Assembly: GCF_001787335.1 (NCBI RefSeq)
Contig: NZ_CP014674.1
Span: forward strand, 752,501 to 816,500
Direction of reading: 5' to 3'
Length of the DNA: 64,000 nt
Origin: Kozakia baliensis
GTDB lineage: Bacteria; Pseudomonadota; Alphaproteobacteria; Acetobacterales; Acetobacteraceae
The notes beneath the pieces are model-generated. The model was not told the origin of the DNA and searched no databases. It saw only the letters and a program-made list of their open reading frames with translations. Positions 7,484 through 9,031 of this stretch are shown here, piece by piece (position 1 is the first letter of the stretch; every line of letters begins with the position of its first letter). The position numbers and the translations under genes were made by a program.

Positions 7484-8029
7484 TCAGCGCCCTTTCTGTT
7501 CCTTGGCAAGCCGACGCATGATCATGTTGCGCTTGAGGGAAGAAAGATGATCGACGAAAAGAATGCCGTCGAGATGGTCGATCTCGTGCTGCATGCAGGT
7601 GGCGAGCAGATCATCGACTTCGCGCTCCTCCACATCTCCGGCAAGGGTGCGAAAACGCACGCGCACGCTTTGAGGGCGCACTACTTCCGCATATTGGTTC
7701 GGCAGGGAAAGGCATCCTTCCTCGCGCGAGACGAGCGTTTCGGATTCCTCGATCACTTCCGGGTTGATCATCACGATCGGATCGCGCTCGCCTTCGTTGG
7801 CAACATCCACTAGGGCGAAGCGCAAGCCCAATCCCACTTGTGGCGCGGCCAGCCCGATGCCGGGCGCTTTGTACATGGCCGAGAACATGCCCGGCAGATT
7901 TTCGCGCAGCATCGCCATATCCTCCGGCTTCACATCGCGCGTCTGACGGCGCAGGACAGCCTGAGGAGCGATTAGGATCGGTGTGGGCGGGACCGCTTCG
8001 ATATCCGCCAGAAAAGCAAGCTCGTTCAT
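7484..8029 (-). CDS. def: Peptide deformylase
   Basis: 181 aa metal-dependent enzyme that removes the formyl group from nascent proteins. All three signature motifs are present: GIGLAAPQ (residues 57-64), EGCLSLP with metal ligand C106, and HEIDHLDG with H148, E149 and H152. ATG 8029 was chosen; no clear ribosome binding site is visible in front of it, so the exact start is less sure. It is the first gene of def-fmt-truA and is transcribed away from the Hsp20 gene; the intervening DNA of about 185 bp must hold both promoters. Confidence 0.95.
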   Translation of the reverse strand: MNELAFLADIEAVPPTPILIAPQAVLRRQTRDVKPEDMAMLRENLPGMFSAMYKAPGIGLAAPQVGLGLRFALVDVANEGERDPIVMINPEVIEESETLVSREEGCLSLPNQYAEVVRPQSVRVRFRTLAGDVEEREVDDLLATCMQHEIDHLDGILFVDHLSSLKRNMIMRRLAKEQKGR

Positions 8030-8085
8030 CGCGTGCGATGTAGCGATCCTACGCCCGAAAAACCAGTTCTTATGCGCAGGTTTTC

Positions 8086-8114
8086 ACATTCCATCCGTTG
8101 GAAAAGCGGAATGT
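8086..8114. repeat. Inverted repeat in the def/hsp20 divergent region
   Basis: ACATTCC at 8086-8092 and GGAATGT at 8108-8114 form a perfect 7-bp inverted repeat with a 15-nt spacer. It ends 4 nt before the proposed sigma-32 -35 element. It could be an operator or part of the def leader; no T-tract follows, so a terminator is less likely. Confidence 0.4.
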
Positions 8115-8117
8115 CCG

Positions 8118-8145
8118 CTTGCGCCTACACCGAACATGACCATAT
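8118..8145 (+). promoter_or_regulatory. Putative heat-shock (sigma-32/RpoH) promoter for hsp20
   Basis: CTTG at 8118-8121 and CCATAT at 8140-8145 are separated by 18 nt. This resembles the alphaproteobacterial RpoH consensus (CTTG, about 17 nt, then a C-rich TATAT-like box). Transcription would begin near 8152 and give a leader of about 60 nt before the hsp20 start. The motif match and the nature of the downstream gene support each other; no expression data are available. Confidence 0.55.
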
Positions 8146-8189
8146 CGTGAAGAAATCGGCATGATGCCAGCTTGGGTTATGCTGAATCT

Positions 8190-8211
8190 GTCTCGCTCAT
8201 GGAGGAGGCTG
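8190..8211 (+). promoter_or_regulatory. ROSE-like RNA thermometer hairpin over the hsp20 ribosome binding site
   Basis: The Shine-Dalgarno GGAGGAGG (8201-8208) can pair with the sequence just before it. Base pairs are 8192-8207, 8193-8206, 8194-8205, then a bulged G at 8195, then 8196-8204, 8197-8203 and 8198-8202, closing a three-base loop; 8190-8209 and a U-G pair at 8191-8208 extend the stem. The pairing TCGCT to AGGA with an unpaired G is the conserved core of ROSE thermometers in small heat shock genes (established for rhizobia and enterobacterial ibpA). It predicts repression at low temperature and opening on heating. Confidence 0.6.
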
Positions 8212-8214
8212 TCT

Positions 8215-8712
8215 TTGTCAGGCCGCTTATTCACTTCGCCGATGTTTCTCGGCTTCGATCATCTTGAACAAATGCTTGAACGCGCCGCTAAAACCGCGTC
8301 GGACGGTTATCCCCCTTACAACATCGAGCAACTCAATCAGACGACGTTACGGATTACCCTTGCCGTGGCTGGGTTTGTCATGGACGATCTGCAAATCACG
8401 CAGGAAGACAATCAACTCGTGATTCGCGGCCGCCAGACCGACGACAGCCAGGGACGTATCTTCCTCCATCGCGGTATTGCGGCGCGCCAGTTCCAGAAAG
8501 CCTTCGTGCTTGCCGAAAACATCGAAATCGGCGACGCATGGCTTGATAACGGGTTGTTGCATATCGACCTATTGCGTCCGCAGCCCGAAGTGCGCGTTAA
8601 GCGTATCGAGATCAGCCAGGGACGTCGCGATCGAGGAGCAGTAGGAGGAACGCAGATCGACATGCCGAAGACGCGTAATCCGAAGATGGTACGCGAGATC
8701 GACGATCAGTAA
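8215..8712 (+). CDS. Small heat shock protein, Hsp20/IbpA type
   Basis: 165 aa, starting at TTG 8215. The frame is open to 8161, but the strong GGAGGAGG at 8201-8208 sits 6 nt before this TTG and gives MSGRLFTSPMFLGFDHLEQM, which matches class A bacterial small heat shock proteins. The alpha-crystallin domain spans about residues 40-135, with LAVAGFVMDDL and a C-terminal region rich in charged residues. It acts as an ATP-independent holdase for unfolding proteins. The leader contains a likely RpoH promoter and a ROSE-like hairpin. DUF1150 and ridA follow. Confidence 0.9.
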   Translation: MSGRLFTSPMFLGFDHLEQMLERAAKTASDGYPPYNIEQLNQTTLRITLAVAGFVMDDLQITQEDNQLVIRGRQTDDSQGRIFLHRGIAARQFQKAFVLAENIEIGDAWLDNGLLHIDLLRPQPEVRVKRIEISQGRRDRGAVGGTQIDMPKTRNPKMVREIDDQ

Positions 8713-8773: not shown

Positions 8774-9031
8774 ATGACCAATCCGTTTCATGAAGACGGA
8801 GTCGAGATGCCGCAAGAGCGCATCCCGGCCGATCTACGGCGCATGACCAATAAGGAATTGCGTAACCTCGGTATGAGCAAACTCGCTTACGTGCGTCCCG
8901 TCATTTACGAAGGCGAAGCGGCTTTTGCCATCCACGCCGCTGACGGCACACCGATGGCGCTGACCGAAGATCGGGACAGCGCCGTTGAGGCGATTATTGA
9001 TCATGAAATGATCCCGGCCTGGGTGCATTGA
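8774..9031 (+). CDS. DUF1150 family protein
   Basis: 85 aa, soluble, with the typical features of DUF1150: NKELRNLGMSKLAYVRPV, then a short ATGxPMAL-like stretch (AADGTPMALTEDRDSA), ending near the C-terminus with a hydrophilic tail. The function is unknown. In alphaproteobacteria members are often next to hsp20 genes, as here, which suggests co-regulation with heat shock. The gap to hsp20 is 61 nt and the next gene starts 1 nt after its stop, so the three genes likely form one operon. Confidence 0.85.
   Translation: MTNPFHEDGVEMPQERIPADLRRMTNKELRNLGMSKLAYVRPVIYEGEAAFAIHAADGTPMALTEDRDSAVEAIIDHEMIPAWVH

Follow-up and report, generated by a model that had tools for sequence, protein, structure and literature searches.

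ROSE-like RNA thermometers, as the literature describes them, lie in the 5' UTR of small heat shock protein (sHsp) genes with a sigma-32 promoter, comprise two to four hairpins and, in the 3'-proximal hairpin, pair U(U/C)GCU imperfectly with the Shine-Dalgarno (SD) sequence, leaving a G bulged. FourU thermometers place four U opposite the SD. Among ROSE-like elements, those of Pseudomonas have two hairpins and a length of 61-62 nt; hairpin I of the Pseudomonas ibpA leader does not melt, and the function of ROSE 5' hairpins is described as not fully understood (PMC3669281). In Gluconobacter oxydans, a ROSE element has been predicted with Rfam at an Hsp20 gene, GOX_RS07835 (PMC5756330); this gene may be the ortholog studied here or another Hsp20.

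Here, we analyzed the Hsp20 leader in a 64,000-nt stretch (the window) of the Kozakia baliensis genome (3.5 Mb), where an earlier note had proposed a ROSE-like thermometer. This host has Swaminathania and Asaia (Acetobacteraceae) as its closest named relatives in the genome collection. The leader is very probably a short two-hairpin ROSE-like RNA thermometer, in a divergent form common to acetic acid bacteria and their relatives; it would probably give the Hsp20 gene an RNA heat switch of a known kind, which goes undetected with standard databases in these bacteria. Judged from its sequence, the leader is a short ROSE-like element by the literature definition of structure, while it belongs to no Rfam ROSE family by score. 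It makes up the 5' UTR of a gene for a small heat shock protein, follows a putative sigma-32 (RpoH) promoter recognized by its motif, has two predicted hairpins and, in the 3'-proximal one, pairs UCGCU imperfectly with the SD around a bulged G. The presence and conservation of these features support the proposed reading, and from them we infer the thermoregulation of Hsp20. RpoH would make the transcript on heat stress, with hairpin II closing the SD at growth temperature; warming would open the weak bulged-G/U-G core of hairpin II and give the ribosome access, after which Hsp20 synthesis would increase more than Hsp20 mRNA. Acetic acid bacteria, which are used in heat-limited fermentations, would thereby have RNA thermometer control at their conserved Hsp20 gene, where Rfam-based annotation shows nothing.

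The Hsp20 gene is divergent from the genes for peptide deformylase and methionyl-tRNA formyltransferase, and is followed by a DUF1150 gene and then by a Rid-family gene. Its product matches PF00011 (E 8e-15) and, below the cut-off of the model, the NCBIfam IbpA model. The features of the leader are collected in Table 1; the extent of the 5' UTR was estimated from the promoter position and the start codon. The CTTG-N18-CCATAT promoter claimed in the earlier note is borne out by the sequence and by its recurrence: 78 of the 95 ortholog leaders have the pattern CTTG-N15-20-[CT][CT]ATA, against a mean of 0.57 and at most 4 in shuffles, and a looser pattern occurs in 75 of 95. The claimed TTG start also holds: the codon is in frame with Hsp20 and, in 95 distinct ortholog leaders, the codon aligned to it is mostly a start codon (ATG 52, TTG 18, GTG 15, other 10). 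With promoter, leader, SD hairpin and TTG start all present, the observation as a whole is confirmed.

Table 1. Features of the Hsp20 leader of K. baliensis and its surroundings (positions in the window).
Feature	Position	Strand	Details
RpoH (sigma-32)-type promoter (putative)	8118..8145	+	CTTG 8118-8121, 18-nt spacer, CCATAT 8140-8145
Predicted 5' UTR	8153..8214	+	~62 nt; start of transcription inferred from the -10 box
Hairpin I	8156..8185	+	TCGGCATGAT - bulged G8166 - CC - agctt - GG - GTTATGCTGA
Hairpin II (SD hairpin)	8190..8209	+	GTCTC - bulged G8195 - CTC - atg - GAGGAGGC
Hairpin II, anti-SD strand	8190-8198		GTCTCGCTC
Hairpin II, loop	8199-8201		ATG
Hairpin II, 3' strand	8202-8209		GAGGAGGC
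Hairpin II, outer pairs			8190-8209, 8191-8208, 8192-8207, 8193-8206, 8194-8205
Hairpin II, inner pairs			above bulged G8195: 8196-8204, 8197-8203, 8198-8202
ROSE core	8193-8197		UCGCU opposite the SD, with bulged G8195 within
Shine-Dalgarno sequence	8201..8208	+	GGAGGAGG; 8202-8208 belong to hairpin II (3' strand)
Hsp20 / IbpA-type small heat shock protein gene	8215..8712	+	165 aa; TTG start codon 8215-8217
DUF1150 gene	8774-9031		directly 3' of Hsp20

Two in-frame ATGs, at 8161 and 8179, lie within hairpin I, and gene-calling software may begin Hsp20 there, adding up to 18 residues.

Conservation of the fold was evaluated on ortholog leaders from 95 loci. Alignment A2 consists of 35 of 36 script-trimmed leaders, hand-picked from the 95 for a clear hairpin I and aligned with MAFFT, with one row (L029) off register by one column. 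Of its 595 cells, 97.6% are paired in the two-hairpin structure; double-change cells number 85 against 27 in shuffles, and none of 500 shuffles matches it in percentage, double-change cells, pair types or covariation score. The tally of pairs that show at least one double change is unremarkable in A2, being reached by 369 of the 500 shuffles. A larger set of 83 distinct rows, fitted to the covariance model and hence biased towards the structure, pairs in 97.9% of 1411 cells. It contains 196 double-change cells (57 in shuffles) and nine pairs changed on both sides, lies far above slid controls, and is equaled by 0 of 500 shuffles on all five measures. RNAalifold yields the same two hairpins unprompted. 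An automatic hairpin parser chose other stems in some leaders (e.g. L036, L040, L079, L016); the counts rest on alignments A2 and A3, not on this parser.

The two hairpins contribute unequally. All eight pairs of the SD hairpin form in every one of the 35 selected leaders, where the changes seen (U-G to C-G, C-G to U-G, U-A to U-G) preserve pairing, and the bulge is a G in all 83 rows (column 70); the TCGCT/AGGA core with a bulged G described in the earlier note stands. Yet variation in this hairpin is scarce, amounting to one-sided changes and, in the 83-row alignment, one double change, so that it brings little covariation support of its own, and the conservation of SD and anti-SD could have other causes. 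Hairpin I, which had been overlooked, is better supported than the SD hairpin and holds nearly all of the covariation of the leader. Its bulged base is likewise G in all 83 distinct rows (column 10), and its core consists of a U.G or C-G pair, the bulged G and C-G pairs, and hides no SD. Both hairpins have a single bulged G on the 5' strand, separated from the loop by two or three pairs. A ROSE-like crystal structure shows the same core as hairpin I, there in the SD hairpin (PMC11342760). Because this core is invariant and is not at the SD, hairpin I is suggested to have a separate job, be it as a folding scaffold, in mRNA stability or as a site that a protein, for instance the sHsp, recognizes.

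The predicted energy of hairpin II alone is -7.1 kcal/mol at 37 C. By nearest-neighbour folding of the UTR alone, the SD is predicted to be 99.5% paired at 30 C and 98.6% at 42 C, i.e. closed at 30 C with slight melting only. The same calculation leaves the SD of the E. coli ibpA leader 98.9% and 96.5% paired; as this proven thermometer also looks closed at 42 C, the method is equally blind for it and folding cannot decide melting. The claim that the SD is fully paired with an upstream segment stands for the UTR alone but weakens when coding sequence is included, which brings in competing downstream pairing: in folds extended by 33 coding nt, roughly half of the pairing of the SD is with downstream coding sequence, and when 23 nt are added its partner in the minimum-energy fold lies downstream.

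The covariance search with the Rfam ROSE models that had been recommended as a check placed no ROSE family above threshold at the leader. Neither Rfam at gathering score across the whole window nor a search at E<=10 of the 501 bases 7900-8400 gave a ROSE match; what they returned was a tRNA elsewhere and chance matches. The leader stays below 65 bits for RF01832 (ROSE_2), which has no match in the window and scores 100.4 bits on E. coli ibpA as a positive control; below 45 bits for RF00435 (ROSE); and below 43 bits for RF02523 (ROSE_3), which reaches its cut-off in 0 of 120 family genomes and has no match in the K. baliensis genome at E<=1. Likewise, no Rfam gathering score is reached at 19 class leaders or at the locus of the K. 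baliensis paralog (0 of 20 loci). RF00435 exceeds its cut-off in 13 of the 120 family genomes, at other loci: by eye, none of the 28 matches listed lies at the orthologous leader.

Below threshold, the kinship with these families is visible. RF02523 scores 35.0, 24.2 and 23.8 bits on three orthologous leaders, which are its best, third and sixth sub-threshold matches, and its alignment to orthologous leaders covers hairpin I base by base, including the bulge; the order of hairpins is the same, and its hairpin I consensus is GAU-G-CC..GG-GUC with a bulged G. The rhizobial-type RF00435 resembles the leader in the bulged G and CC/GG of its first hairpin and in the UUGCU opposite the SD in its last, but has an additional middle hairpin. 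RF01832 and E. coli ibpA share the bulged G of upstream hairpins and the UCGCU opposite the SD, but have three hairpins against two here. Pseudomonas ibpA has in common the two hairpins, a UTR of 61-62 nt, the sigma-32 promoter, the sHsp gene and an SD in hairpin II opposite U(U/C)GCU with a G opposite the SD (PMC3669281), and elements of this size make "minimal version", as the leader had been called, an apt term. The K. baliensis leader belongs to another clade, and its hairpin I differs in that its bulged G is invariant and its stem covaries. ROSE-G elements also have a bulged G in the SD hairpin, but are described with CUGCU, ABC transporter genes and a further bulged G in the strand of the SD (PMC12857270), whereas UCGCU and a single bulge are found here. 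In the leader sequence, CUGCU facing a bulged G of the SD strand, as in ROSE-G, is absent, and so are the four U of fourU thermometers.

A covariance model of the leader (R1) finds one strong place in the K. baliensis genome, at 50.8 bits, the next scoring 14.4. It matched 94 of the 94 loci given, many of which are training rows or close relatives. Among 120 Acetobacteraceae genomes, 74 match at E<=0.01 and 46 do not, the latter including five without an Hsp20 match; comparison of two lists by eye put 73 of 77 family matches directly upstream of the orthologous Hsp20. Some Hsp20 match exists in 115 of the 120 genomes; four of the five without one (G019, G028, G065, G069, G115) are small, at 1.9-2.1 Mb. 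In a sample of the class, model R2 matches 11 of 289 genomes, nine of them outside Acetobacteraceae, and seven of these nine matches lie immediately upstream of an Hsp20 ortholog (the exceptions being L155 and L160). R2 aligns weakly to the rhizobial-type ROSE (10.5 bits) and misses the three-hairpin leader of the K. baliensis paralog.

The bulged-G hairpin recurs well beyond this leader. The consensuses of RF00435, RF01832 and RF02523 each include an upstream hairpin whose bulged G is in the same position, and the leader of the second (ibpA-type) Hsp20 gene of K. baliensis has three in tandem, at -102, -59 and -26 from its ATG, with no Rfam family at gathering score. A scan pattern (stem with 5 or more pairs, bulged base, CC, loop of 3-9, GG) was fixed after 27 class leaders had been viewed with a looser pattern, and it occurs in 24 of 39 previously unviewed leaders. 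The class set comprises 64 of 67 leaders, after removal of the near-identical L190 and L191 and of L250 (<90 nt). Of these ortholog leaders from Alphaproteobacteria outside the family, 40 have a bulged-G hairpin away from the SD hairpin, spanning 33 of 45 families, and 24 do not have the pattern. Other bulged bases in the same leaders are rare (A 0, C 3, T 2; 3'-strand bulges 0-5), and the controls gave 0 of 61 for stretches 375-500 nt upstream and a mean of 1.57, at most 5, for shuffles.

Paralog leaders show the same preference. In a set of 20 among many family paralogs plus that of K. baliensis, for 3/20 of which the start was not found by pattern, 21 of 21 leaders display a total of 46 hairpins, with at least two in 16 and at least three in nine, against 0-1 for other bulged bases; this count allows CC or CT and hence includes the SD hairpin. 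A search for ibpA-type leaders matched 107 of 299 genomes, and within the best 30 places the pattern is found in 11 of 11 alphaproteobacterial and 19 of 19 other leaders (other bulges 0-1). Ten of the 19 non-alpha leaders have such a hairpin away from the SD; it is absent from nine, six of which come from one genus. The predicted fold of E. coli ibpA also contains three hairpins with a 5'-strand bulge. As the leaders are related by descent, the hairpin counts are not independent trials, and the contrast between G and the other bulged bases is the firm part of them. We found no remark on the shared bulge of upstream ROSE hairpins in open-access papers; others may mention it. With the bulged-G core shared, and no other base, a single-nucleotide handle on the role of ROSE 5' hairpins becomes available.

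How the leader works could be explained otherwise. The sHsp might bind its own mRNA at the bulged-G hairpins, blocking translation until aggregates titrate it away, heat acting mainly by this route, which we regard as possible but rather doubtful. In its favor, E. coli IbpA binds its own 5' UTR and represses its own translation in a manner that needs R93 (PMC10474464). This residue is kept here: Hsp20 has the aligned Arg (IAARQF) as well as the Tyr of GYPPYN, with corresponding residues in the paralog. The invariance of the core in hairpin I, where no SD is hidden, and its repetition up to three times in tandem point the same way, and recognition of hairpin I by the sHsp can be put forward as a testable guess. 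An action of E. coli IbpA on rpoH mRNA is reported as well. However, a scan of the region from -250 to +400 of E. coli rpoH, run as a test of the idea, gave a single weak bulged-G hairpin at background level and does not support it, and the nine non-alpha ibpA leaders mentioned above, with no such hairpin outside the SD hairpin, also weigh against it. In its widest form, which we offer tentatively and hold to be unlikely, the module would not be peculiar to the SD hairpin but deeply conserved and repeated in proteobacterial sHsp leaders, as the site where the oligomeric sHsp binds and represses its own mRNA. Copies in tandem, of which this leader has two and that of the paralog three, would provide avidity, and ROSE leaders would sense heat and aggregation jointly.

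It is less probable still that hairpin I merely protects the mRNA 5' end and hairpin II is a constitutive translation brake, heat induction being due to RpoH alone. A stable 5' hairpin has indeed been proposed to stabilize Pseudomonas ibpA mRNA (PMC3669281), and folding predicts no melting at 42 C, but a hairpin serving stability needs no invariant bulged G and core, and the E. coli thermometer appears just as closed in the same calculation. Chance folding around a strong SD can be given hardly any credence: GC-rich leaders do fold readily and the pairs of hairpin II are nearly invariant, but hairpin I covaries, which contradicts it, and the single genomic match and conserved placement of the leader argue in the same direction. 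A two-hairpin ROSE-like thermometer thus remains our preferred reading.

Variants of this architecture were seen at other loci. In one distant genome (L157, 1501-1594), an insert of ~40 nt separates the two hairpins and both bulged-G cores are kept. The leader of the second K. baliensis Hsp20 gene lies at ~1890-2020 of its locus (L004, - strand), its last hairpin holding the SD. The E. coli ibpB leader (L152) displays an upstream ATGCTC-G-CC-gtca-GG-GAGCAT hairpin, with TCGCT upstream of the SD.
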